The notes below the pieces were generated by a model. That model was not told the DNA's origin and searched no databases. It saw only the letters and a program-made list of their open reading frames with translations. 64,000 bases of DNA, taken from contig JAFKJB010000003.1 of NCBI GenBank assembly GCA_017306155.1, forward strand, positions 1-64,000, written 5' to 3'. Made by a program: the position numbers and the translations under genes. The DNA is from Nitrosospira multiformis (GTDB taxonomy: Bacteria; Pseudomonadota; Gammaproteobacteria; Burkholderiales; Nitrosomonadaceae). Below are positions 2,537 through 59,754 of this stretch, one piece after another. The first letter of the stretch is position 1, and each line of letters starts with the position of its first letter.

Positions 2537-3447
2537 GAATATTTACGCCAGACAATAGCGGGCCACCCGCCCTCCTCCCGGTTAAGGAGAACCACTCCGC
2601 CGGCCTGCGCTTCGCCGATGGCTACGCGGAGTGTCGCGAGAAAATAATTGCTGCTGGTTCCAATATCGCTTTCCTCTACCGCAACGCCTTGGGGAAGACG
2701 GTTGAGAAAGTCGGCGTGATCACGAAAATGGACGCGCGCGCGCTGTAGAGTCAATATGCGGGCATTTCCAATTCCCAGGCCCTCGACAATGGCAGCAAGC
2801 ACTTCGGGTGGCGCGGTATTGACATTGACAGTGGTAAAGCCTGGCAGGGCCGTCACGAACGGGCGCAAGCGGGCGCGGATATCCCTGTTGAAACCACGGA
2901 TACGGGCCAGTTCCGCTACATCGGTGAGGGGTCTGTTGGCAGTAAGGTACGAGGGGTTCAGCATACCGTAATATTCATCCTCGGCGCCGTGCTGCGGACG
3001 AGGTTCGCTGTCAACGTCTATCCAGTCAGCCAGTGCATCGGCAAGCGCATCCGGCAAATCGAGCAAGGCCAGCAAGCGCTTGAAGTGAGCAAGCTGTGCC
3101 GCACTGATTTTTCCATCGGGAGCCAGGTTGTTCAGATTGAACAAGCCCTGCTGGTCATGGATGTGCCCCGTGAGTTCACCGTTTTCAACCGGCATCGCCG
3201 GCATCTGCAATGCCCAGGGTTCGCCCAGGTGATCGATGCTGCCCATCCGGCTGTCATCGCTCAGCACGGCGCGAACCCAGTCCACCCCTGCCTTGACCAT
3301 CGCCTGCGCCTGAATGTAATCCTGCGCAAGCTGGCTTTGTCGTGACCAGATACCCTGAGAGGTAATGATGGCTGTTGCGGTTATCGACGCGAGGGCAACG
3401 ACCCCCATGGCAAGCACCACGGCTACCCCACGTTGTCCTGTTCTCAT
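2533..3447 (-). CDS. gspK: Type II secretion minor pseudopilin GspK
   Basis: 304 residues. GspK caps the pseudopilus tip together with GspI and GspJ. The N-terminus has a short basic leader ending in Gly followed by a hydrophobic helix (RG-VAVVLAMGVVALASITATAI), the prepilin-peptidase site and transmembrane segment. It lacks the Glu at +5 of the mature protein, which is characteristic of GspK. The body has the LFNLNNL...YLTANRPLTDVAEL...VNVNTAPPEVLAA pattern typical of the family's alpha-domain insertion. The stop overlaps the gspL start; the start is four bases after the gspJ stop. Confidence 0.94.
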   Translation of the reverse strand: MRTGQRGVAVVLAMGVVALASITATAIITSQGIWSRQSQLAQDYIQAQAMVKAGVDWVRAVLSDDSRMGSIDHLGEPWALQMPAMPVENGELTGHIHDQQGLFNLNNLAPDGKISAAQLAHFKRLLALLDLPDALADALADWIDVDSEPRPQHGAEDEYYGMLNPSYLTANRPLTDVAELARIRGFNRDIRARLRPFVTALPGFTTVNVNTAPPEVLAAIVEGLGIGNARILTLQRARVHFRDHADFLNRLPQGVAVEESDIGTSSNYFLATLRVAIGEAQAGGVVLLNREEGGWPAIVWRKYS

Positions 3448-3451
3448 GTTT

Positions 3452-4072
3452 TCATTGGAAAATGCGTTCTATTTCCTCTCCCGAGGCTAGCGTAATGCGC
3501 AGGCGCACGGCCCGGGGAACGGAAGAAATCGCAGACGCCGGAGAGTCAGGCGCTGCACTTGGCCACGCATTCACCCATGCACGATTTGCGGTAAGATAGT
3601 GCAGTTGCATTTTTGCCACTCCGGCCAATACCGGATAACGCATGGCTGCTGCCCCGGAACCGATGTCAAGACCTGGCCACAACCATAACTCGACTTCCCG
3701 TTTATCATTCAACAGGTAAGCTGTCCGCCGCGCGGCATCCGCTTCTTCGATGGAGCCCAGGCGGCTGAATTCCATGTAGGGCAACAAACCCCCATCGGAC
3801 GCCGCTTTTATCACTCCAAGCCAGGCCGGCGAAACGCCCGAGCCGGTTCGAACCGGCCGCGGTATCGCAAGCTGCACATCATGCTCAAACCGCATCAGGA
3901 ATAAATCTATGCGGCGCCACTTTTCAGTTTCCCGCTTCACATACTCTTGCGCATCGAGTATTGCCGCAAGTCCGCGATAAGACATCACTGCCAGCAAAGA
4001 CAGAACAGTCAGCGCAACCAGCAGCTCGATCAGGGTAAATCCCTGGAAACTGGTTTTACGCCTGGATTTCAT
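3452..4072 (-). CDS. gspJ: Type II secretion minor pseudopilin GspJ
   Basis: 206 residues. The class III leader MKSRRKTSFQG is followed by FTLIELLVALTVLSLLAVM, giving a prepilin peptidase site (G/F) with Glu+5 and a hydrophobic helix. The rest matches GspJ, with RIDLFLMRFEHDVQLAIPRPVR and a C-terminal RVRLRITLASGEEI-like ending. GspJ is part of the tip complex with GspI and GspK. There is a gap of about 120 bases to the gspI stop, unlike the overlaps elsewhere in the arm. No strong Shine-Dalgarno is visible at this ATG, so a slightly different start cannot be excluded, but the leader length fits. Confidence 0.92.
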   Translation of the reverse strand: MKSRRKTSFQGFTLIELLVALTVLSLLAVMSYRGLAAILDAQEYVKRETEKWRRIDLFLMRFEHDVQLAIPRPVRTGSGVSPAWLGVIKAASDGGLLPYMEFSRLGSIEEADAARRTAYLLNDKREVELWLWPGLDIGSGAAAMRYPVLAGVAKMQLHYLTANRAWVNAWPSAAPDSPASAISSVPRAVRLRITLASGEEIERIFQ

Positions 4073-4191
4073 GGAAATGGATTATGAACACTTCTTTCTG
4101 GAGGACATGAACGCAAGAAGGCACAGGAAAATCGGGCGGCGATCTTCCGCTCCCGCAAAACCGGCATCGCACTGTCTCCCGGCAAGCCTGC

Positions 4192-4599
4192 TCACGGATT
4201 CCCCGGAATTGCCGGTTGCGCCAGATATCCTGTCAGGTGCGCAAGCAGGTGCGATTCTCCGGCAGGCGCAAATACCGAAATATTGGCTCGCCGAAATGAG
4301 GGATTTGCGGTTTCCGCAATATCCGTCCGCCACGCAAAATCCATATTTCCTTGCTTTGCTGTCCCACGATATGTACCCGGCGGCAGCCATACACCCTGGG
4401 CACGCTGTTCTGCCAGGAGATTTTCCGCAACCCATCCCGCCAGCAGGCGCGAGCGCAGTTCGCCGGCATTGAGCGTCCCCTGCCCTGCGACACGCAATGC
4501 GGCCATGAGGGCAACCGCAATGATTGCCAATGCGACCAGAACCTCAACCAGCGTGAATCCGCGGCCTCTACCGCAGCTGCCCGGATATGATTTCACCAT
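4192..4599 (-). CDS. gspI: Type II secretion minor pseudopilin GspI
   Basis: 135 residues. The leader MVKSYPGSCGRGRG precedes FTLVEVLVALAIIAVALMAAL, a prepilin peptidase site followed by a hydrophobic helix with Glu+5. The following ENLLAEQRAQGVWLPPGTYRG segment is typical of GspI (family pattern ...A.NLLAE.R....WP..G). It nucleates the tip complex with GspJ and GspK. The 5' end overlaps the gspH 3' end by 32 bases in another frame, so both starts are constrained by an otherwise compact operon. Confidence 0.92.
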   Translation of the reverse strand: MVKSYPGSCGRGRGFTLVEVLVALAIIAVALMAALRVAGQGTLNAGELRSRLLAGWVAENLLAEQRAQGVWLPPGTYRGTAKQGNMDFAWRTDIAETANPSFRRANISVFAPAGESHLLAHLTGYLAQPAIPGNP

Positions 4600-5086
4600 T
4601 CACTCTTCCCTCTCCCGGCAATGCCTGCACCTCGCCAATCGGAGATCCTGTGACTGTATAGCGTTCCGTCCCAAAAGATATCTTTATGACATAAGCCGGC
4701 ATCGAACCGCGGGGACTGAACTCCAGTCGCATAAAATCTGCTGGCGACATTTCGATCAGCATGCCCGTGATCTTCATGCCCTGCGGAAACTTCCGCTCCC
4801 GGAAGAGATCATTATTGCGAATTTCTGACCAACCGGCGCCGCGTTGATTCCGCAAAAACCGATAGCTCGAGCCATCTGTTATCCAGGCGAGAGATCTTCC
4901 TGACATGCGCGCTTCAGTACCCGCCAGATCAAGGAGTTGCGCCAGCCGCTCCGCCTCGACACGAAGAAGAGTTCGTTCGTCCGGCCGCACTATGCTGCTG
5001 ATAAGCCCCGCAAAAAGCCCGATAATCACCAGTGCGACAAGCACTTCGATGAGCGTGAACCCGCCTCCGGCTCTTATCTCAGTCAC
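4568..5086 (-). CDS. gspH: Type II secretion minor pseudopilin GspH
   Basis: 172 residues from a GTG start with AGGATTC upstream. The leader MTEIRAGGG is followed by FTLIEVLVALVIIGLFAGLI, with the class III cleavage site and Glu+5. A GspH-type segment (ERLAQLLDLAGTEARMSGRSLAW...) follows. GspH links the GspG shaft to the tip complex. The gene sits 14 bases after gspG and overlaps gspI. Length is normal for the family. Confidence 0.92.
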   Translation of the reverse strand: MTEIRAGGGFTLIEVLVALVIIGLFAGLISSIVRPDERTLLRVEAERLAQLLDLAGTEARMSGRSLAWITDGSSYRFLRNQRGAGWSEIRNNDLFRERKFPQGMKITGMLIEMSPADFMRLEFSPRGSMPAYVIKISFGTERYTVTGSPIGEVQALPGEGRVNGEIISGQLR

Positions 5087-5100
5087 GAATCCTGTTGGCC

Positions 5101-5622
5101 TTACAGATTCCAGGAGCCAATATCCGCGTCATTACCGTCTCCTCCCCGGGCGCCATCCGCTCCGAAACTGAAAACGTCGATTTCGCCATGAACCCCAGGG
5201 TTCAGGTATTGATAAGGATTACCCCAGGGGTCCTTCGGAAGACGCTCGATATATCCTCCCGCTTTCCAGTTGGAGGGAATCGGCGGATCGGCCGGCTTCG
5301 TTACCAGTGCCTGCAATCCCTGCTCGGTCTTGGGATAGCGATGGTTGTCGAGACGGTACAGCTTGAGCATCTGCATCAGGCTGGCGACATCCTGCTTTGC
5401 TGCGATGATACGCGCTTCATCAGGACGGCTGATGATCTTCGGCACCACCATTACAGCAAGAATTCCAAGAATCACGACTACCACCATGACCTCAAGCAAA
5501 GTAAAGCCGCCCTGCCTTCCGCGCGGTTCATACTGGAGGGCAGTCCAAAAGCTTGGAGTTCGTTGTCTTTCAGAGAGTAGATTGGAACCAGGTTTCTCCA
5601 TCATTTTTACGTAAATACCCAT
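5101..5622 (-). CDS. gspG: Type II secretion major pseudopilin GspG
   Basis: Major shaft pseudopilin. The core GG-FTLLEVMVVVVILGILAVMVVPKI with a downstream C-terminal calcium-site region (WGNPYQYLNPG...GEIDVFSFGADG) is highly diagnostic of GspG. The odd feature is the leader. No in-frame ATG, GTG or TTG lies between the ATGs at 5601-5622 and the cleavage site, so the pre-sequence would be roughly 32-39 residues, whereas GspG leaders are usually 5-10. I give the first ATG at 5622; those at 5604 and 5601 are equally possible, since none has a clear Shine-Dalgarno. First gene of the leftward gspG-H-I-J-K-L-M arm. Confidence 0.93.
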   Translation of the reverse strand: MGIYVKMMEKPGSNLLSERQRTPSFWTALQYEPRGRQGGFTLLEVMVVVVILGILAVMVVPKIISRPDEARIIAAKQDVASLMQMLKLYRLDNHRYPKTEQGLQALVTKPADPPIPSNWKAGGYIERLPKDPWGNPYQYLNPGVHGEIDVFSFGADGARGGDGNDADIGSWNL

Positions 5623-5625
5623 CAA

Positions 5626-6241
5626 AAAACGGACAAAATGGAACGAAGATTACCCAAGAAACTGTTCATTGTCGACTGCGGTTTTGCACCGTGACACATG
5701 CCTCGCGGTTTGCCCCATAATACGCCCTCGACGCAACTTCTACTGACTCCGCCGGGAAAATTCTCAGTCACAGGAAATCGATACCAGCAATAATCCCAAA
5801 GAAAACATATTCCTTATTCGCCAAACAGGAACAAATTAACGCTTATTTTGCACGTTTAGAATCAGGAAAGCCGGAAAACAAATCAGGAGGCGACGACACA
5901 ATGGCGACAGTAAATTGATTCTCGTCAGACGGGAGCGTTGATTCGCGACTTGTCGGCAAAGGAAGTATCGGCTCACATGTTGACACGGACGGATACAGGT
6001 CAGTTTCATGTCACAGCGATGGTTATGCGCGAGCAGACTCGGTTATGGAACTTTATGCCACTTGCAACCGAGGTTAAACCCACTGACCGTGGGAATGATG
6101 CTGGATGCCACCAAGTATTATTTTCTGTTCTACATTCTAAATGGTTGCCCAAGGCAAATTGGCTGCGGCACTTTCGACAGTACTGTCTGGATGCCCCGGC
6201 AGCCACGGTACATCTTCCATTTCTCGCCGCGAGCAAACCGC
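5626..6241. other. Intergenic region upstream of gspG
   Basis: About 615 bases with no supportable gene. It should contain the promoter of the gspG-M arm. It also contains the sequence beyond the broken end of the S51 peptidase fragment. A good ribosome-binding site (AGGAGG near 5885) precedes an ATG that is followed by only four more codons before a stop, possibly the stub of a lost gene. I found no clear inverted repeats or IS ends. Confidence 0.4.
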
Positions 6242-6730
6242 TCAATAGATTCCGCCTCCTGGCTGAGACGAGACCAATGCACCGGTTTCAGCCGAGTCGC
6301 CGCCCGCGATAAACAAAATTTCCGCTTTTTTGATCCGGTCGAGCACGAACGGATCGCTGGCCGCCTCACGCGTCTTTATGACCAGAGTCTCAATGGAATC
6401 GATACCGCCCATGTCGTAGACATACTGGTTGTAGCCGTCGGCCCCGCTGGCGCGGATCACCACGAAATCGCCACCTCCCGCCTTCCGGATCATCCACTTG
6501 AACGCAGCGTCCACGTCGGGACCTCCGCCCATCAGGAGAGTTGACGGCGACCGTGGCCTTTGCGGCAGGACAGCATCGACCGCGTTGCCCGTTAGGTAAT
6601 ATTCGTAGCCTTTGGGCTTGGGCTCCGCCAATACTCCAAAGGCTGCGCAAACCGCAGCAGCGGCCAGGACAAGGCATGCAAAAAGCCGCGGGAAGGATCT
6701 ATCCCTGCCCTCTTCGATATCCCTATGCAT
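6242..6730 (-). pseudogene. Cyanophycinase-like S51 peptidase, truncated N-terminal half
   Basis: 162 residues with a signal-peptide-like N-terminus (LFACLVLAAAAVCAAFGVLA). A segment then matches the N-terminal half of secreted cyanophycinase-like S51 peptidases (LLMGGGPDVDAAFKWMIRKA, GGDFVVIRASGADGYN, AEILFIAGGD). Homology stops right after GGD: the tail SAETGALVSSQPGGGIY is unlike the family, and the nucleophile motif GxSAG that should follow is absent. I find no continuation in any frame down to 5900. The protein therefore lacks its catalytic half and is most likely non-functional. It lies between the two divergent T2SS arms, so intact relatives may have been exported cargo (speculative). 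Confidence 0.68.
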
Positions 6731-7181
6731 TAATCGCTCTTTAAAGAGAAGGATGGCGCCAAACAGGGCCTATCACTTATTTATTATTTATTTTGATCGA
6801 ATGATCCCTTGACGCCAAAATGCTTTCGAGCGAAAAGAAGATGAAAACAGGGTTTAATTCTGCTCCTGACAGAATACATAAAGGAGTATAAACATGTTCA
6901 TGTTAGCAGCAATTCAGCTCATGCACAGCCCGAAGCATAAAGTGGAATATACTCGCGCAACTTCGCCAAGCCTCAATACGCTTGAACAAGGTACAATTGC
7001 GGCTCATGAGCTATTCAGCGAAATCTGACCGATAGAAAGTGACATCACCGAATCTCGCTGAGTATGCAGCAATCTCCACCATGAACTATCGTTTCTTTCA
7101 GGAACTCGTCATAAGAATCATTCCCTGATCGAAACTTTCCGATTTTTACTTCAGCCGTATTGAAAAGTTAAGCATTAAAGA
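6731..7181. other. Intergenic region upstream of gspC
   Basis: About 450 bases holding the promoter region of the rightward gspC-F arm and of the leftward S51 remnant. It contains one short ORF with a good ribosome-binding site, listed separately, and is otherwise AT-rich non-coding sequence. Confidence 0.4.
6894..7028 (+). CDS. Possible small protein (44 residues), unrecognised
   Basis: A 44-codon ORF starting MFMLAAIQLMHSPKHKVEYT, preceded by AAAGGAG seven bases before the ATG, a good ribosome-binding site. The peptide has no membrane segment and no motif that I recognise. It ends about 150 bases before gspC on the same strand. The ribosome-binding site is the only positive evidence; it could equally be a chance ORF or the remnant of a larger gene. 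Confidence 0.22.
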   Translation: MFMLAAIQLMHSPKHKVEYTRATSPSLNTLEQGTIAAHELFSEI

Positions 7182-7712
7182 ATGCCGGAAATCTCGATCG
7201 ACCGGTCGAATCGTGCGCAAACAGTCCTTGTATACCTGATCATCCTCGCCGCACTCGCACTGCTTGGAGGGGTATTGTTGTACTGGACACGCCTTTGGTT
7301 CATTCCCCATCCTCCGCCCAATCTCGAGTCAGGCAGGCGTGCGGGCATGGGAGCGGCCGAAGATATATCGACTGTCAGCGACCTGTTCGGTATTGCACAG
7401 CCAGAACAACCCTCCGTTGCTGTTCCTGCCGGACCCGAGATCAGGCTGTTCGGGGTTGTTGCCGCTTCCGGGAGCGGGCGGGGATACGCGATCCTGCAAG
7501 TGGATGGAAAAGAGATGCTTGCGGTGCCAGAAGGTGAAAACATCGCTCCCGGCCTCCAGTTGGCTGAGGTTCATACCGAATATATTGTCCTGGAACGTGG
7601 CGGAATGCGGGAAACGCTTGCATTGCAGCGCCAGAGCCCGCCTGCAGGTCCTGCTCTTCCGGTGGAGACGGACCTGCCTGGCGAATTTCAGGCGCCGATC
7701 ATAATTGAATGA
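7182..7712 (+). CDS. gspC: Type II secretion system protein GspC
   Basis: 176 residues. GspC is the inner-membrane clamp that contacts the GspD secretin. A short cytoplasmic N-terminus is followed by one membrane span (about residues 14-34, VLVYLIILAALALLGGVLLYW). A periplasmic homology region comes next (SDLFGIAQPE...IRLFGVVAASGSGRGYAILQVDGKEMLAV...GLQLAEVHTEYIVLERGG). The C-terminus has no PDZ or coiled-coil domain, so this is the short form common in betaproteobacteria. It heads the rightward gspC-D-E-F arm, with gspD starting about 30 bases downstream. Some databases label this family GspN/GspC-like. Confidence 0.88.
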   Translation: MPEISIDRSNRAQTVLVYLIILAALALLGGVLLYWTRLWFIPHPPPNLESGRRAGMGAAEDISTVSDLFGIAQPEQPSVAVPAGPEIRLFGVVAASGSGRGYAILQVDGKEMLAVPEGENIAPGLQLAEVHTEYIVLERGGMRETLALQRQSPPAGPALPVETDLPGEFQAPIIIE

Positions 7713-7745
7713 TGCCGTCATCTCATGGGCTACAGAGGTAAAATC

Positions 7746-10097
7746 ATGCGGCATCGCTCGCTATGTGCAGTTTTTTTATGGATGGCGGTGGCGGGTTGGG
7801 CCACTGAGGCCTGGTCCGTAAATTCCTCTGCCGCCCTGCCAGCTGGGGAAATTGATGCCCCGCCGAAAACCCTGCCGGAAGGGGATTCCCTGCGCGCCAG
7901 TAAACCTAAGCCTCCTGTTGGCCAGGATCTCGTTACACTCAACTTCGTCAATGCCGATATTGAAGGCGTGGTGAAAGCGGTCAGCGAAATTACCCGGAAA
8001 AATTTCATGCTCGATCCGCGCGTCAAGGGTACGATCAACATCGTTTCAGCCAGGCCGGTGCCGAGATCGTCAGTTTACGAAGTATTTCTGTCGGCATTGC
8101 GATTGCACGGATATGCAGTTGTCGAGGATTATGGCATCATCAGGATCGTTCCGGAAAGTGATGCCAAATTATACCGGAGCCCGGCACTTGGCCCCGCGAA
8201 CCAGCGGCAGCCCGCAGGTGACCGCATCCAGACCCAGGTATTTACGCTGCAGTATGAATCCGCGGTGCAGATGGTGCCGATTCTGCGTCCGCTGATCGCT
8301 CCCAACAACAGTATCACTGCAAATCCCAACAGCAACACGCTGGTCATTACCGACTACGCGAGCAATCTTCAGCGCCTGGCAAAAATAATTGATTCGATGG
8401 ATCAGCCCAGTGGAACCGATCCCGTCTCGATACCCCTTCAGCACGCCTCGGCAATCGATGTCGCGCAAACCGTGAACCGGCTGTTTTCGGAATCGACGCA
8501 GTCCCAGGCCGAGGGCGTCGCGGACCCCACCCAGCAGCGCTTCACAGTCGTCGCCGATGCCCGCTCGAATACCCTCCTGGCACGCTCCGGAAACCGGGCA
8601 GCGCTTGCGCGCCTGCGCCAGCTGGTAACAGTGCTCGATTCTCCGACCAGCGCTGCCGGCAACATGCATGTCGTTTTTCTCAAGAATGCCGATGCAGTCA
8701 AGCTTGCCGAAACCCTCCGTGCGATCTATCACAACATGGCGTCCCCGGTTTCCTCATCTTCAGGGCTGAGTCAGGCAACCGGCACGGCTTTTGGAACGTC
8801 TTCCCTTGGGTCGTCCACCAGCGGCGGGATGGGTGCCTCGACAGGCGCCTCAATAGGCGGTTCGATGGGCACTTCCATGCCAGGCTCCAGCCTCGGCGCA
8901 GGGGCTGTTCCCGCTGCTTCCAGCATCACCCCCGCTCCGATGCAAACTGTCGCCACTTCCGCTGCACCCGGCATCATTCAGGCGGATGCGGCCACCAACT
9001 CGATCATTATTACTGCCCCGGATGCTATTTATAACAATTTGCGCGCGGTAATAGAGAAACTCGACGTGCGCCGCGTGCAGGTTTATATCGAAGCGCTGAT
9101 TGCCGAAATTACTGCCGACAGAGCCGCGGAATTCGGCATTCAGTGGCAAAACCTGAGCAATGCCGCGCAAGGCGGAACCCAGGTTTTCGGCGGCACCAAT
9201 TTCAATGCGGGCACTGCCGGGGGCGGCAGTATCATCTCCGCCGCCCAGAACCCGATAGCGAATGCAGCGTCGGGCCTGACCATCGGCATCATGAATGGGC
9301 TTGTCACGGCTATTCCCGGCATCGGCCCTGTTCTCAACATTCATACGCTCATCCGGGCGCTGGAAACGGATGCCAATGCCAACATTCTTTCCACCCCTAC
9401 CCTGCTGACACTGAATAACGAAGAAGCCAGGATCGTCATCGGGCAAAACGTTCCGATTCCCACCGGCCAGTTCATTCCGCCAGTGGGGGGTGCCGTTAGC
9501 TCCCCGTTTCAGACCGTTTCACGCCATGACGTAGGATTATCATTGAAGATCAAGCCGCTTATCTCGGAAGGCAATACTGTCCGTGTGCAGATTTTTCAGG
9601 AGGTCTCGAGCGTCGTTCCCGGCACAGTCAATGCCACCAACGGTTTGATTACCAATAAGCGCTCGATAGAATCGACAGTGCTGGTGGACGACGGGCAGAT
9701 TCTCGTGCTCGGCGGTCTGATGCAGGATACGGTAAATGACTCGGTTGAAAGAATTCCGCTGATCGGAGCGATTCCCCTGGTCGGGCAATTGTTCAGCTAC
9801 AACAAGCGGTCACGCAACAAAACCAATCTGATGGTATTCCTGCGGCCGACGCTGATGCGATCGGGCGACGCTGCCGATCCGCTTTCTGGCGCACAGTACG
9901 ATCGGGTGCTGAGCGAACAGAAAAAAGCCACGCCCGAATTCAATCTCGTGCTTCCGGATATGGAATCGCCTGCTTTGCCGCCGCGTCAACCGCTGCCTGT
10001 CATCCATGACAGCGTCACTCCCGATAATCCGGATATCTCCAATACCAACACTCAAGGCAACTGGGACACCGGGGGAGTGATGGATAATACCCCCTGA
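7746..10097 (+). CDS. gspD: Type II secretion outer-membrane secretin GspD
   Basis: 783 residues from the ATG at 7746, chosen over the in-frame ATG at 7725 because only it has a Shine-Dalgarno (AGAGG, about eight bases upstream). A signal peptide is followed by the N0 domain (LNFVNADIEGVVKAVSEITRKN), N1-N3 repeats, and a Ser/Gly-rich low-complexity loop at about residues 340-400. The secretin core (VYIEALIAEITADRAAEFGIQW, near residue 445) and the terminal RIPLIGAIPLVGQLF...KTNLMVFLRPTLM segment complete the family pattern. It forms the outer-membrane exit channel. No pilotin gene is visible nearby. Confidence 0.96.
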   Translation: MRHRSLCAVFLWMAVAGWATEAWSVNSSAALPAGEIDAPPKTLPEGDSLRASKPKPPVGQDLVTLNFVNADIEGVVKAVSEITRKNFMLDPRVKGTINIVSARPVPRSSVYEVFLSALRLHGYAVVEDYGIIRIVPESDAKLYRSPALGPANQRQPAGDRIQTQVFTLQYESAVQMVPILRPLIAPNNSITANPNSNTLVITDYASNLQRLAKIIDSMDQPSGTDPVSIPLQHASAIDVAQTVNRLFSESTQSQAEGVADPTQQRFTVVADARSNTLLARSGNRAALARLRQLVTVLDSPTSAAGNMHVVFLKNADAVKLAETLRAIYHNMASPVSSSSGLSQATGTAFGTSSLGSSTSGGMGASTGASIGGSMGTSMPGSSLGAGAVPAASSITPAPMQTVATSAAPGIIQADAATNSIIITAPDAIYNNLRAVIEKLDVRRVQVYIEALIAEITADRAAEFGIQWQNLSNAAQGGTQVFGGTNFNAGTAGGGSIISAAQNPIANAASGLTIGIMNGLVTAIPGIGPVLNIHTLIRALETDANANILSTPTLLTLNNEEARIVIGQNVPIPTGQFIPPVGGAVSSPFQTVSRHDVGLSLKIKPLISEGNTVRVQIFQEVSSVVPGTVNATNGLITNKRSIESTVLVDDGQILVLGGLMQDTVNDSVERIPLIGAIPLVGQLFSYNKRSRNKTNLMVFLRPTLMRSGDAADPLSGAQYDRVLSEQKKATPEFNLVLPDMESPALPPRQPLPVIHDSVTPDNPDISNTNTQGNWDTGGVMDNTP

Positions 10098-54208: not shown

Positions 54209-54994
54209 ATGAACGATATTGTGGCCGCCTTTAACGAATATTTCGAAGTTATCGATGTCGACACTCCGGAATTATTGCGTGAGGCATTCCGGGTTCGCTA
54301 TCAAGTGCTATGTGTCGAACAACGTGCTCCAGGTTTTCCAGCATCGCGCTATCCAGATAAAATGGAAAGCGATGACTATGACCGCCACTCGTCCCATATA
54401 CTTCTGCGTCACTGTCCTTCTGGCGCCATTGTCGGAACGGCTCGCCTGATTTTGGCAGATCCGCTCGACCCCGAAAAACCGTTTCCGACTGAGCGATACA
54501 TGACGCTCAATTCAGATCCTGTCGACATCGCTAGCATCCCCCGGCAGAACATAGGGGAAATATCACGTCTTCATATTACCCGCGAATTTCGCCGTCGCAA
54601 GGAGGATCATGAGGGAAGCGAAGCAGGAGTGACTTTTGAAGAAAACGGGATAAAAATGCGACGACGTTTCCCTCACCCGATTCTGGCCCTTGCCGTTGGT
54701 CTCATACGGATATCCGCCTCCCATGGCATTACCCATTGGATTTCGATCATGGATCCCGCGCTGAACAGATTGTTAAGTGCCTACGGATTACAGCATGACT
54801 CCATTGGTCCGCTAACCGAGTACTACGGTCAGCGAGGGCCCTATTATGCCAACCTTACCCACATGCTGGATAGGATGAATAAAAAACATAAAGATATCTG
54901 GGAGTTGGTTACTGATTACGGCAGGGTCATTCCAAAGCGCCAGAGGGATGTGATTTCACCGGCACCTCATCCTTCTGCTCTTGCCAATATTTAA
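54209..54994 (+). CDS. PEP-CTERM/exosortase system-associated acyltransferase
   Basis: 261 residues from the ATG at 54209. GNAT/autoinducer-synthase-like fold: FEVIDVDTPELLREAFRVRYQVLCVEQRAPGF aligns with the N-terminal substrate region of LuxI-like proteins. CPSGAIVGTARLILAD and IGEISRLHITREFRRRK match their core strands. The overall pattern and length fit the family tied to exosortase/exopolysaccharide loci rather than true LuxI (about 200 residues). The product is unknown; an N-acyl compound for export or signalling is a guess. It supports an exosortase system elsewhere in the genome, in line with the PEP-CTERM gene at 37.8 kb. Confidence 0.85.
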   Translation: MNDIVAAFNEYFEVIDVDTPELLREAFRVRYQVLCVEQRAPGFPASRYPDKMESDDYDRHSSHILLRHCPSGAIVGTARLILADPLDPEKPFPTERYMTLNSDPVDIASIPRQNIGEISRLHITREFRRRKEDHEGSEAGVTFEENGIKMRRRFPHPILALAVGLIRISASHGITHWISIMDPALNRLLSAYGLQHDSIGPLTEYYGQRGPYYANLTHMLDRMNKKHKDIWELVTDYGRVIPKRQRDVISPAPHPSALANI

Positions 54995-55122: not shown

Positions 55123-55596
55123 ATGTCTGCGGGGCAGATAAAAATTGTGACCATTAAAATAAGAATCAGTCATCTGGTTTCGTCTATATGCCTGCTGCTC
55201 GGCCTTTTATTCATGGCGAGTAAAACTTGGGCAGTCGAGCCCTACGAGATCGTCACGAACTCCGGCGTCAGCGAAAAAAACCTCTCCAAAAGCTCCTTGC
55301 GTGCCATCTTCGGCATGCGCCTGCATACGTGGCCGGATGGCAACCCCATTCATGTGTTCGTGCTTCCGGATGATGCCCCCTTGCATATCGCGTTCTCCAA
55401 GGAAAAACTGAATATTTTTCCCTATCAACTCCGCGCAGCATGGGACCGGCTGGTGTTCTCGGGCACGGGACAGGCGCCGGAAACGGTCGCTTCTCTAGAG
55501 GAAATGCTTGCAAAAGTCGGTAGCACCCCCGGAGCCATTGGCTATTTAACCCGATCCAGAATGAATGGCAGTGTCAATGTTCTGCACGTCAAGTAA
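55123..55596 (+). CDS. PstS-like periplasmic substrate-binding protein (small)
   Basis: 157 residues. A signal peptide/membrane segment (ISHLVSSICLLLGLLFMASKTWA) is followed by a short periplasmic-binding-like domain. Features are YEIVTNSGVSEKNLSKSSLRAIFGMRLHTWPDGNPIHVFVLP and a C-terminal GSTPGAIGYLTRSRM, the pattern of phosphate ABC transporter PstS-like single-lobe proteins. At about 130 mature residues it is half the size of true PstS, and no pstCAB genes are present. It is immediately followed by a porin and a GGDEF-EAL gene. It may sense or pass an anion (inference). Confidence 0.78.
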   Translation: MSAGQIKIVTIKIRISHLVSSICLLLGLLFMASKTWAVEPYEIVTNSGVSEKNLSKSSLRAIFGMRLHTWPDGNPIHVFVLPDDAPLHIAFSKEKLNIFPYQLRAAWDRLVFSGTGQAPETVASLEEMLAKVGSTPGAIGYLTRSRMNGSVNVLHVK

Positions 55597-55615
55597 CCCC
55601 ATTCGCCGCTATTGG

Positions 55616-56824
55616 ATGCGAGATGCTGTCCGGCTCGCCGTGGTGTCTGCCATCCTTTCGAATTGTGTTGCTTACGCGCAGAAACTGCCGATTCCTCAGA
55701 ACCTGCCGAACAACCTGCAAATACATGGCTTTGCCAGCCAGAGCTGGCTCAAGAGCACGGACAACAATAACGTTTTCGGGAAAAGCAGTTCCGATAGCGG
55801 AAGTTTTGACTTCAGGGAACTGGGGCTGAATGCTTCCATGAGGCCCAGGCCCAACCTCCAGCTTTCGGCTCAGATGATTTCCCGCACTGCGGGAAAAGGG
55901 AGTCCAGGCAATATCCGGCTCGATTACGGATTCATTGACTATACATTTCTATCGGAAGAAAACAGCAAGATAGGAATACGTCTTGGCAGAATGAAGAATC
56001 CGCTCGGCTTTTACAATGACACGCGCGACGTTCCCTTCACGCGGCCCAGCATACTTTTACCTCAATCCATCTATTTTGATCGCGTACGCAAGGTTGCAAT
56101 TGCTGCGGACGGAGTACATTTATACGGTGAATACCGTTTCGATCACGGGGTCCTATCTTTCCAGGGTGGACCGGTACGTCCATTGGTCAGAGGTGCTGAA
56201 GCAGAAGTAGCGCTGTTGGGCCCGGGGATAGCAGGCCATTTTGCTCCAGATATCTCCTATATTGGCCGTATAAGCTATGAACTCGATGAGGGCCGGCTTC
56301 GTTTTGCATTCAGCGGAACGGATTTGAACATAGATTATGATCCCGTGAGCGGCGACCGGCTTGGCCCGGGCTCAATTCGCTTTACGCCTCTCATTTTCTC
56401 CGCGCAATATAATGCAGAACGCTGGAGTTTCACTTCGGAATACGCACTCCGCCATTTCGAATATAAAAATTTTAACGTAGCGTCCCTTAATCTGGATTTC
56501 TTTGGCGAGAGTTATTACTTTCAGGGGGCTTATCGAATCACACCGGAATGGGAAGCGGTTGCCCGTTACGATGTACTGTATACGGACAGCGATGACCGCA
56601 GCGGAAAAAAATGGGCGGCAGCTACAGGCGGCGATGCGCATCGGCGATATGCCAAAGACATTACCGTGGGACTGCGCTGGAATGTCACGCCCGAGTTCAT
56701 GTTGCGTGCCGAGTATCATCGCGTAAATGGGACAGCCTGGCTTTCGACTCTCGATAATCCCAACTCGGGAGACCTGTCGCCGCATTGGAATCTGTTTTCC
56801 ATCCTCGGTTCCTACCGGTTCTAG
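55616..56824 (+). CDS. Outer-membrane porin-like beta-barrel protein
   Basis: 402 residues from the ATG at 55616, which gives a compact signal peptide (MRDAVRLAVVSAILSNCVAYA); an in-frame ATG at 55565 would add 17 residues and overlap the upstream gene. The mature part has alternating amphipathic strands throughout (for example LQIHGFASQSWLKST, FDFRELGLNASMRPRPNLQLSAQM). It ends in a C-terminal aromatic (LGSYRF), the classic outer-membrane barrel signature. It resembles anion-type porins in style, but the substrate is undefined. Co-oriented with, and three bases before, the GGDEF-EAL gene. Confidence 0.8.
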   Translation: MRDAVRLAVVSAILSNCVAYAQKLPIPQNLPNNLQIHGFASQSWLKSTDNNNVFGKSSSDSGSFDFRELGLNASMRPRPNLQLSAQMISRTAGKGSPGNIRLDYGFIDYTFLSEENSKIGIRLGRMKNPLGFYNDTRDVPFTRPSILLPQSIYFDRVRKVAIAADGVHLYGEYRFDHGVLSFQGGPVRPLVRGAEAEVALLGPGIAGHFAPDISYIGRISYELDEGRLRFAFSGTDLNIDYDPVSGDRLGPGSIRFTPLIFSAQYNAERWSFTSEYALRHFEYKNFNVASLNLDFFGESYYFQGAYRITPEWEAVARYDVLYTDSDDRSGKKWAAATGGDAHRRYAKDITVGLRWNVTPEFMLRAEYHRVNGTAWLSTLDNPNSGDLSPHWNLFSILGSYRF

Positions 56825-56826
56825 CC

Positions 56827-59754
56827 ATGCTGCAGGATAAGTATTTTCATAATCAGGCTACGCAGAGAAATGGAGCGATAGCACCTGAAAAGCCCCAGAA
56901 ATTCCTGGGGCTGAAGTGGAAAGTTCTGCTGCTGAGCAGTCTCATACTGATTGCCATCGTGGTTTCATTCACGGGAATTACCTACCTGAGCCTGATGGAT
57001 GACTTCGAAAGCCAGAGAAACGCCCAGCACCAGCGCTATGCCAAGGAAGTTGAAGGGCTGATTGACCAGGTTTCGATAAATTTGCATCAACTCGCCGGAT
57101 TGGTTCCTTTCCTGGAAGGAATGGGTAAAAGCCTGCTCTCCGGTAACAAAAAATACGTCACTCAGGCATTTGATCCATATTGGATGCCTTTGCAGCTCCA
57201 CAAGGGTATCGAATTGCTGCGTTTTTACGATAGCTCAAATCAGCAACTGGCAAGTTGGGGAATTTCCCAGCCTGTCACTCATGACGCGTTGATATCCGCC
57301 TGGGTACACGAAGTGAATGCGCAGGAAAAGCCGATGAGTCACCTCAGCTGCCCCAGCAGCTGCATGCAATTTGCCGTGGCGCCCCTGCTCGTGGAAGGTA
57401 ACAATGTAGGGGTGATCGTCATCGGGACCCCCCTGGTCGATGTGATCCTGGGTTTCAAGGATATCTCGGGCGCTGATATCGCCTTGCTGGTGAGCGAAAA
57501 AGGCGATTTGCCCAAAAGCAGCCAGGTAAAAATTGCAAACTGGAATGTTACGATTGCTGCACACAGCAGAGAAATGAACACTGTTGTCCTGGATGACGCT
57601 GCAGCGAATTATCCGGACATGGAAAACCTCGAGGAGGGTATCCTGGTTTCGTGGCGCGACAGGCACCTGCAGATAAAGCCCCTGTTTCTGGAGAGAATGG
57701 CCGTGTCGGAAGATGATGCTCATTTCATGGTTGTAACTGACATCACTTCCACGATCCGCACCATTCACAACTCGACACAGCAAAACATGATAATTGGCCT
57801 GGTCGGGCTCATACTCTCTGAAATACTGTTGTTCATCATTCTCACCAAGCCGCTGTCGCGGCTCAAGCACATCGTTTTTACTCTTCCTCTTCTGGCCCGC
57901 AGCAGTTTCAAGAATTTTCGCCTGGAACTTCGCTCTGCCAGCCAGAAACGATGGGTGAAAGATGAGATTGACCTGCTGGATGAAACAGCGGTGGCCCTGT
58001 CGCATCAACTGGAGAAGCTCGAGGATCAGGTAGCGGACAGGACCCGTATACTGGCGAGCAAGATGCACGAGCTAGGCAAGGAGAGAGATTTCATCAACAA
58101 TCTGCTGGACATTGCGCAAGTGATCGTAATCACGCAAAAGTCGGATAGTGAAATTCTCACACTCAATGCCTATGGTGAAACGCTTATTCAGTATACCGAA
58201 AAAGAACTGCAGGGAACGCCCTTCCTCCATCTTCTGGCGCTCGACGGGAATCTGCACGATCTTCCCGTTCACCTGGAAGAGGTGCGATGCCAACGAAGAG
58301 ACCAGCTTCGGCACGAAGCGAATATCGTATGCAAGGACGCTTCCATTCGTAATATTCTGTGGCTGCATTCACGCTTGACCCGACACACCGAGGATGACCC
58401 CGCAATGTTATCGGTAGGCCTCGACATGACGGAACACAAGCGCGCTGAAGGACGTCTTGCCTGGCTGGCGGATCATGATCCGCTCACGGATCTTTTCAAT
58501 CGCCGCCGCTTCCAGGAAGAACTGGAACAGATGCTGAATCTTGCCGCGCGCTACGGGTATTCCGGAGCCTTACTCTTTTTCGATCTGGACCAGTTCAAGT
58601 ACATCAACGATACCAGCGGGCATCAGGCGGGGGATGCCTTGCTTAAAATGGTGGCGCGCTTGCTGCTTGGCAACATCCGCAGCGTCGATATACTCGGGCG
58701 CCTGGGAGGCGATGAATTCGCGGTGATTTTGCCCCAAACCACAGCCGAAGGGGCGATAGAAGTGGCAAAAAATACGCTTGCGAGCCTGAATCAGGGAAAG
58801 ATTACGATAAATGGCCGCACTCATAAAGCATCAGCCAGCATTGGTATTGCGCTTTTCCCGGAGCATGGCAGCAATGTCCACGACCTCCTGGCCGCGGCCG
58901 ACCTTGCCATGTATCAGGCAAAGGAAGCCGGACGAGGAGGATGGCATTTGTTTTCTGACGAAGAGAAAACACGTGAACGCATGCACACGCTCGTCTATTG
59001 GAAGGAAAAGATTGAGTATGCCCTTTCACACGAACGCTTCCTGTTCTATTTCCAGCCCATCATGCATGTTCGGCGCAGGACCATCGATCATTACGAGGTG
59101 CTGCTGCGCATGATCGACAATGATGGAACCATTCTTGCGCCCCAGTTTTTCATTCCCGCCGCAGAACAGACCGGACTTATCCATGCCATTGACCACATGG
59201 TTTTACGTAAATCGATTGCGCAATCGGCTGAAATACAGCGTGCCGGTCAGCGCATCCGTTTTTCCATAAACTTGTCGGCGCATGCATTTCACGATCCGGA
59301 GCTGCTGCCGATACTGAAAGATGCATTTGCCGAGCATGGCGCGGATCCATCGAATTTCATGTTTGAAATAACCGAGACAGCAGCACTGGAAGATTTGCCC
59401 GCGGCACGGGAACTCATGGAGATGATCAAGAAGCTGGGCTGCAGTTTCACGCTGGATGATTTCGGAGTCGGTTTCTCCTCCTTCTACTACATCCGGCAAC
59501 TGCCGATCGATGTCGTAAAGATCGATGGCTCATTCATACGAAATCTGGCGGACAGCCCCGATGACCAGATACTGGTGCAGGCTTTGTGCGATGTGGCAAG
59601 AGGATTCGGAAAGAAGACAACAGCGGAGTTCGTGGAAAATGCAGCGACTTTTTCAATCCTTGAGAAAATGCAAATCGACTATGCCCAGGGATTCCTGATT
59701 GGGACACCCTCCCCCGCTTACAACACATCATTCGGTAATTTCTTGAAGATGTGA
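56827..59754 (+). CDS. Membrane-bound GGDEF-EAL c-di-GMP enzyme with periplasmic sensor
   Basis: 975 residues from the ATG two bases after the porin stop; an upstream reading needs a TTG inside the porin gene. Membrane span at about 32-56, a large periplasmic Cache-like sensor domain (to about 320), and a second span near 325-345. A HAMP-like/coiled-coil linker, a PAS-like domain (about 420-538), GGDEF and EAL follow. The cyclase motif is intact (RLGGDEFAV, near 626). The EAL domain has EVLLR (near 756), DDFGVGFSS (near 877) and the later Glu region, so both activities are possible. The gene is tightly linked to a porin and PstS-like protein. Confidence 0.92.
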   Translation: MLQDKYFHNQATQRNGAIAPEKPQKFLGLKWKVLLLSSLILIAIVVSFTGITYLSLMDDFESQRNAQHQRYAKEVEGLIDQVSINLHQLAGLVPFLEGMGKSLLSGNKKYVTQAFDPYWMPLQLHKGIELLRFYDSSNQQLASWGISQPVTHDALISAWVHEVNAQEKPMSHLSCPSSCMQFAVAPLLVEGNNVGVIVIGTPLVDVILGFKDISGADIALLVSEKGDLPKSSQVKIANWNVTIAAHSREMNTVVLDDAAANYPDMENLEEGILVSWRDRHLQIKPLFLERMAVSEDDAHFMVVTDITSTIRTIHNSTQQNMIIGLVGLILSEILLFIILTKPLSRLKHIVFTLPLLARSSFKNFRLELRSASQKRWVKDEIDLLDETAVALSHQLEKLEDQVADRTRILASKMHELGKERDFINNLLDIAQVIVITQKSDSEILTLNAYGETLIQYTEKELQGTPFLHLLALDGNLHDLPVHLEEVRCQRRDQLRHEANIVCKDASIRNILWLHSRLTRHTEDDPAMLSVGLDMTEHKRAEGRLAWLADHDPLTDLFNRRRFQEELEQMLNLAARYGYSGALLFFDLDQFKYINDTSGHQAGDALLKMVARLLLGNIRSVDILGRLGGDEFAVILPQTTAEGAIEVAKNTLASLNQGKITINGRTHKASASIGIALFPEHGSNVHDLLAAADLAMYQAKEAGRGGWHLFSDEEKTRERMHTLVYWKEKIEYALSHERFLFYFQPIMHVRRRTIDHYEVLLRMIDNDGTILAPQFFIPAAEQTGLIHAIDHMVLRKSIAQSAEIQRAGQRIRFSINLSAHAFHDPELLPILKDAFAEHGADPSNFMFEITETAALEDLPAARELMEMIKKLGCSFTLDDFGVGFSSFYYIRQLPIDVVKIDGSFIRNLADSPDDQILVQALCDVARGFGKKTTAEFVENAATFSILEKMQIDYAQGFLIGTPSPAYNTSFGNFLKM

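Follow-up and report, generated by a model that had tools for sequence, protein, structure and literature searches.

A porin and a one-lobe PstS-like protein as the candidate front end of a c-di-GMP sensor in Nitrosospira multiformis and other Gram-negative bacteria

Background

In Vibrio cholerae, polyamine sensing relies on the NspS-MbaA pair, in which a binding protein controls a GGDEF-EAL enzyme of cyclic di-GMP (c-di-GMP) turnover by switching the balance of its activities, and the gene of the binding protein lies directly upstream of that of the membrane enzyme (available parts of PMC8079147). No acyltransferase-type synthase appears in those parts of the source, where the word porin has 0 matches in the main text and 16 in a longer text (PMC8079147). 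More generally, binding proteins are recognised as activators of c-di-GMP enzymes, kinases and chemoreceptors, with 0 matches to porin in the available portion of the source (PMC9602780). Here, we describe a set of three genes encoding a small PstS-like periplasmic protein, an outer-membrane porin and an inner-membrane GGDEF-EAL sensor, preceded by an acyltransferase gene, in a window of Nitrosospira multiformis DNA (the whole analysed stretch of 64,000 nt from contig JAFKJB010000003.1, assembly GCA_017306155.1). As in NspS-MbaA, a binding-protein-like gene lies near the gene of a GGDEF-EAL sensor with a periplasmic domain; here, the two are separated by a porin gene. A further difference is that NspS is of the classical binding-protein type and presumably two-lobed.

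A three-compartment layout like that of the present set is known from the YfiB-YfiR-YfiN system of Pseudomonas, where an outer-membrane protein, a small periplasmic protein and a membrane diguanylate cyclase form one relay. The protein families differ, however: YfiB is an OmpA-like lipoprotein, not a porin, the small protein of the set does not belong to the YfiR family, and the YfiB-YfiR-YfiN system is not known to include an acyltransferase. The acyltransferase itself resembles FeeM, Nas343/354 and the TIGR03694 subfamily in fold, family score and an invariant Glu in an E-x-S-R motif, whereas here its gene is linked to a porin, a half binding protein and a receptor, and some of the hosts have no exosortase match. 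LuxI, a synthase of the same fold, is paired with LuxR, a cytoplasmic transcription factor; here too, a synthase is encoded beside a putative receptor, but this receptor would be a trans-envelope c-di-GMP enzyme, and its signalling role is proposed. N-acyl amino acid synthases fused to PilZ are known, and the physiological role of N-acyl amino acids was called not clear in 2016 (available parts of PMC4897644). In strain LW13, a synthase mutant lost a polysaccharide band, which provides a precedent for the synthase itself (available parts of PMC11072679). The parts are known and the combination is new; we recognised no description of the set among the open-licence papers listed by literature searches.

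Results and discussion

The three genes of the set are co-oriented and separated by gaps of 19 and 2 bases from the probable starts (Table 1). This agrees with an earlier reading of the DNA made from the letters alone (hereafter the sequence-only reading), which had described co-oriented genes with gaps of about 20 and 2 bases and no transport partner; no ABC (ATP-binding cassette) permease or ATPase and no pstC, pstA or pstB was seen among the flanking open reading frames (ORFs), and the neighbours are unrelated. We infer from the layout that the genes are co-transcribed. The sequence-only reading had also proposed to look for adjacency without pstCAB in other genomes and had held that its idea would fail if the genes were neighbours only in close relatives. 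In a class-wide draw of 276 genomes, including the window genome, a small protein adjoined 26 of 28 porin homologues, and a porin adjoined 25 of 26 small proteins with at least 110 bits, across families; such pairs recurred in the phylum draw, so that the genes are neighbours well beyond close relatives. The two unpaired porin homologues are fragments with short frames of 159 and 73 amino acids (aa), one of them at a contig start. Internal stops occur in the single unpaired small protein and in three of the porin-adjacent ones.

The same association was found at other taxonomic distances. Within the family, the small protein is present in 84/100 genomes (window genome counted), and 17 of the 20 loci examined have the order small protein, porin, sensor; the exceptions are L051, without a sensor, and L053 and L054, which hold a more distant small-protein copy. 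Among the closest named loci (the best 80 of 181, mostly Nitrosomonadaceae, with counts restricted to loci with room on the contig), the porin follows the small protein in 79/79, and a sensor-domain homologue is present in 73/74, a count that includes at least one kinase (L165) and copies truncated by contig ends. The small protein matched 20 of the 299 genomes of the phylum draw at an expectation value (E) of 1e-20; of 20 places with at least 110 bits, 15 were examined, and all 15 hold both the porin and a sensor-domain homologue. In the order-level set, a porin-labelled ORF lies at most two genes from the small-protein match in 34/47 cases, although this label is partly circular because five of the query barrels came from these same loci; among the 13 cases without such an ORF are a contig edge and overlapping ORFs. 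Nine barrel candidates neighbouring the small protein in a distant group included five with Porin_4 and four without a Pfam match at E 0.01. Since the source genome has 13 GGDEF matches in 3.0 Mb and the arrangement recurs across families, the gene association exceeds chance.

Additional copies were seen in several genomes. Some Nitrosomonadaceae carry a second, distant small-protein copy (L054, 4987-5421 and 3420-4997; L053, 3700-4146), with a porin-labelled ORF upstream in both loci and a GGDEF-only protein adjoining the copy in L054. In L236 (genome G397, 3306-9789), three porin-model matches each adjoin a small-protein match, which suggests expansion of the pair.

These data raise the question of what the two paired proteins are. 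The porin matched Porin_O_P with 24.9 bits (cut-off 20.9) in an alignment restricted to residues 309-388, and its C-terminal residue is Phe. The sequence-only reading had suggested that such a porin admits phosphate or another anion, which the small protein binds and presents to the sensor; the Porin_O_P label, if it holds for selectivity, and the membership of the small protein in the PstS fold family are consistent with this. The kinship to PstS is distant: the small protein matched Pfam PBP_like_2 with E 4.3e-5 and 23.8 bits, under the curated cut-off of 27 and over profile positions 96-187 of 267 only (its best named match is 91% identical). The predicted model of the 149-residue protein covers one PstS lobe, 104 residues of a 260-residue chain, and not a two-lobed periplasmic binding fold. 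S-G-T was found in 0/31 aligned relatives at the site of the PstS phosphate loop, which was located by hand alignment anchored on a shared Phe, with residue roles that we take to be those of PstS; the consensus at this site is x-P-L-H, with His in 30/31 rows. Moreover, the genome encodes a separate full-length PstS on a different contig. This PstS gave no significant match to the small-protein profile, which leaves distant Pfam, PDB-sequence and fold matches as the basis of the kinship. Thus, the protein differs from PstS in its single lobe, its replaced phosphate loop and the lack of pstCAB, which makes phosphate an unlikely ligand and weakens the case for anions as the cue; we regard the sensing of phosphate or another inorganic anion as distinctly improbable.

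The name "phosphate ABC transporter substrate-binding protein" is attached to 7 of the 10 plasmid records matched by the small protein. Long ORFs that seem to include the small protein (L072, L088, L090, L092 and L094) are not relied on as Rosetta-stone fusions because the six-frame caller extends ORFs and no output domain was found by Pfam in the four that were scanned (L072, L090, L092 and L094).

The third protein scored above the cut-offs for dCache_3 (64.7 bits), GGDEF (164.2) and EAL (230.7). It has strong hydrophobic spans at residues 26-58 and 319-346 and borderline ones at 182-213, in agreement with the two-span enzyme with a periplasmic Cache-like domain described in the sequence-only reading. 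Among 88 aligned sensor-domain proteins, the GGDEF motif is exact in 77, DDFG of the EAL domain is kept in 85, and 82-85 keep the remaining EAL residues that were checked; the three proteins without the EAL motif are two kinases (L058 and L165) and one ORF of L079. The intact catalytic motifs therefore make both GGDEF and EAL activities plausible. A PDB sequence search with the sensor domain returned nothing useful. Two separate ORFs make up the sensor gene in L037/L101, L046, L146, L224 and L249, a split that may reflect sequencing errors or inactivation.

In most of the orthologous sets examined, the dCache_3 sensor behind the small protein and porin ends in GGDEF-EAL, but the same pair also precedes dCache_3 sensors with a kinase output (the hybrid histidine kinases of L058 and L165) or an HD-GYP-type HD domain (L251). 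Other, more distant porin/small-protein pairs adjoin kinases with different input domains (L233, L263 and L070), GGDEF alone (L075), HAMP-SpoIIE (L071) or methyl-accepting chemotaxis proteins (L080 and L265). The element common to these varied outputs is the porin together with the half binding protein. The module itself is well supported: the genes present, their conserved linkage, the assigned folds, the intact catalytic motifs and the exchange of outputs are all shown here. The signalling unit of the sequence-only reading is thus backed by conservation and output swapping, while that reading had overlooked the acyltransferase gene.

We propose that a cue from outside reaches the c-di-GMP enzyme by way of the porin and the half binding protein, a relay to which we assign a probability of roughly 0.45, a figure that excludes the ligand step. 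The cue would enter through, or act on, the dedicated porin; the one-lobe protein would work with the porin as a cap, carrier or coupling subunit and convey its state to dCache_3 in the inner-membrane sensor; and the sensor would shift its GGDEF/EAL balance and, with it, the c-di-GMP level and surface growth. The locations of the proteins, all their contacts, the direction of flow and the effect on c-di-GMP are predictions of this model.

Could the relay operate without any diffusible ligand? The small protein might shuttle between porin and sensor and read porin assembly, porin occupancy or outer-membrane stress, and an envelope-state relay of this kind has been proposed for YfiB-YfiR-YfiN. 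The near-obligate pairing with the porin and the swappable outputs agree with this alternative, and a protein without a second lobe and phosphate loop is more readily seen as a protein-protein adaptor than as a binding protein. It leaves the repeated acyltransferase linkage described below unexplained, however, and the Pfam scan of the small protein at E up to 1 returned PBP_like_2 alone and no YfiR-type family, although Pfam presumably contains a YfiR family. We consider envelope-state sensing unlikely, though a real contender.

Another important question is the nature of the cue. The acyltransferase scored 267.1 bits against TIGR03694 (cut-off 111.95), a subfamily named "PEP-CTERM/exosortase system-associated acyltransferase". 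Its predicted model (mean predicted local distance difference test score, pLDDT, 87.8) has the fold shared by FeeM and acyl-homoserine lactone (AHL) synthases: the top PDB fold matches are AHL synthases, with FeeM in the top ten, and an ordinary GNAT acetyltransferase scores about as high. A PDB sequence search gave nothing useful, the best biological lead being an AHL synthase at E 0.16. The invariant residues D55, D58, R79, E117 and R120 presumably correspond to the LuxI catalytic set, and we read the Glu of E-x-S-R as equivalent to the catalytic Glu of FeeM. The modelled fold and family score thus point to a putative N-acyl amino acid synthase, as which the enzyme is proposed here.

On the same strand, the acyltransferase gene precedes that of the small protein in 67/72 of the closest named loci with room, and in 39 of these 67 it is at most 50 bases from the small-protein ORF or overlaps it. 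Elsewhere, it is first in the row (L174), divergent from the set (L201, L209 and L214), placed between the genes of sensor and small protein (L206), at the end of the row behind the sensor (L224, L248, L249, L250 and L267) or linked in other arrangements (L170 and L215). In a careful acyltransferase tree of 74 rows (one long-branch row dropped and five linked rows added, bootstrap not settled), the linked label needs 7 changes, and the starred branches force at least 3; a quick first tree of 70 rows forced at least 2, with 5 as the best count. A row was called unlinked if no small protein lay within 5.5 kb in the stretch examined; of the 41 such rows, L198 has less than 1.5 kb of DNA on one side. 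The linked rows outside L095-L174 stem from few loci, and the duplicate DNAs (L194 = L174, L201 = L169) each entered the trees once. Because the positions and orientations of the acyltransferase vary and the linked copies fall in separate clades, inheritance of a frozen operon was rejected as the sole cause of the linkage. In the class draw, TIGR03694 was above cut-off in 15/23 genomes with the small protein vs 38/276 overall (Fisher p 1.8e-9, uncorrected for phylogeny), and the two genes are linked in 10 of the 15 genomes holding both.

It is this repeated linkage that leads us to prefer, tentatively and at less than even odds, the acyltransferase product, an N-acyl amino acid or a relative, as the ligand. 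Several observations weigh against the relay and this choice of cue. The acyltransferase and the small protein are on different contigs in the remaining 5/15 class-draw genomes with both, and 8 of 40 stretches around acyltransferases (the second copy of the window genome included, other matches judged by coordinates only) have a small protein and porin nearby, while 32 do not. No acyltransferase was found nearby in the Burkholderiales loci L055-L061, and 4 of these 7 genomes (G125, G142, G356 and G298) have no copy above cut-off anywhere; nor was one present in the stretches examined at ten f171 loci of the phylum draw (L252-L260 and L262). The acyltransferase is part of the unit in Nitrosomonadaceae and several other lineages, but many sets lack it, and the ligand may therefore differ or not be its product at all. 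Long-chain acyl amino acids are not expected to cross an ordinary porin easily; ligand binding is not assured in a one-lobe protein without the usual closing cleft; and no adjacent sensor was detected by the models used at L051, L230 and L231, nor at L170.

Alternatively, the acyltransferase could be a helper of extracellular polysaccharide or the exosortase system, with the sensor regulating polysaccharide or biofilm by an unrelated cue and the linkage reflecting shared regulation only. The subfamily name, the two exosortases of the window genome, the exosortase in 23/28 genomes with unlinked copies only and the LW13 phenotype, as far as the available parts of PMC11072679 describe it, agree with this. 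In the window genome, however, the exosortase matches lie either ~115 kb from the acyltransferase copies or on a different contig, and 8/12 other genomes with a linked copy have no exosortase match, vs 5/28 with unlinked copies only (p 0.0075; 8/13 and p 0.010 with the window genome included), although these p values are loose because four of the eight exosortase-free genomes belong to one family. We judge this explanation improbable.

The relay with an acyltransferase product as its cue could be extended to a quorum-sensing-like system, in which the N-acyl signal of an AHL-synthase-fold enzyme would be received by the porin, one-lobe protein and dCache GGDEF-EAL enzyme, linking cell density or surface confinement to c-di-GMP, and the porin and half binding protein would be a general, interchangeable sensory front end for c-di-GMP enzymes, kinases, phosphatases and chemoreceptors; we hold this to be possible but doubtful. 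The data suggest an undescribed way of sensing an outside molecule and adjusting c-di-GMP in ammonia oxidisers and other Gram-negative bacteria. If correct, it would add an outer-membrane component to binding-protein-driven signalling, provide N-acyl amino acids with a candidate function and a candidate receptor and ammonia oxidisers with a candidate biofilm switch, and suggest that small genes annotated as phosphate substrate-binding proteins encode sensory adaptors, not transport proteins.

The features of the locus are collected in Table 1. The genes around the set are tRNA-Leu, chorismate synthase, a zinc-type dehydrogenase and, on the minus strand, an ORF that we read as RNase R. A search over 6.7 kb for a c-di-GMP riboswitch or other RNA upstream found only the tRNA and one sub-threshold small nucleolar RNA match, taken as chance. 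Consensus promoters numbered 6 (6.4 expected from shuffles) and terminator-like sites 10 (6.1 expected).

Table 1 Features of the acyltransferase-linked sensor locus in the window
Feature	Length (aa)	Coordinates	Strand	ORF and probable start	Basis
Acyltransferase, TIGR03694 subfamily, proposed N-acyl amino acid synthase	261	54209..54994	+		TIGR03694 score, predicted fold
Small periplasmic one-lobe PstS-like protein	149 (from GTG 55147)	55147..55596	+	55123-55596; GTG 55147 (alternative ATG 55123)	
Outer-membrane beta-barrel porin, Porin_O_P-like	402	55616..56824	+	55565-56824; ATG 55616 (overlapping upstream ATG 55565 possible)	
Inner-membrane sensor: transmembrane span - periplasmic dCache_3 - transmembrane span - cytoplasmic linker - GGDEF - EAL	975	56827..59754	+	56785-59754; ATG 56827	

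Further copies of the acyltransferase were also seen. The second TIGR03694 copy of the window genome (L178, 6184-7068) has LolA-like, ABC ATPase and DUF1302 genes next to it, and the neighbours scanned include no exosortase. Tandem duplicates occur in L135 (4548-5333 and 5982-6899), L180, L181 and L182, the L135 pair lying upstream of the small protein. Finally, on the Alteromonas mediterranea plasmid MRG65-300 (L268, 4902-9745), the type IV CRISPR genes csf1-csf3 have as neighbours the genes of a small, distant PstS-like protein and of a hypothetical protein of 386 residues.

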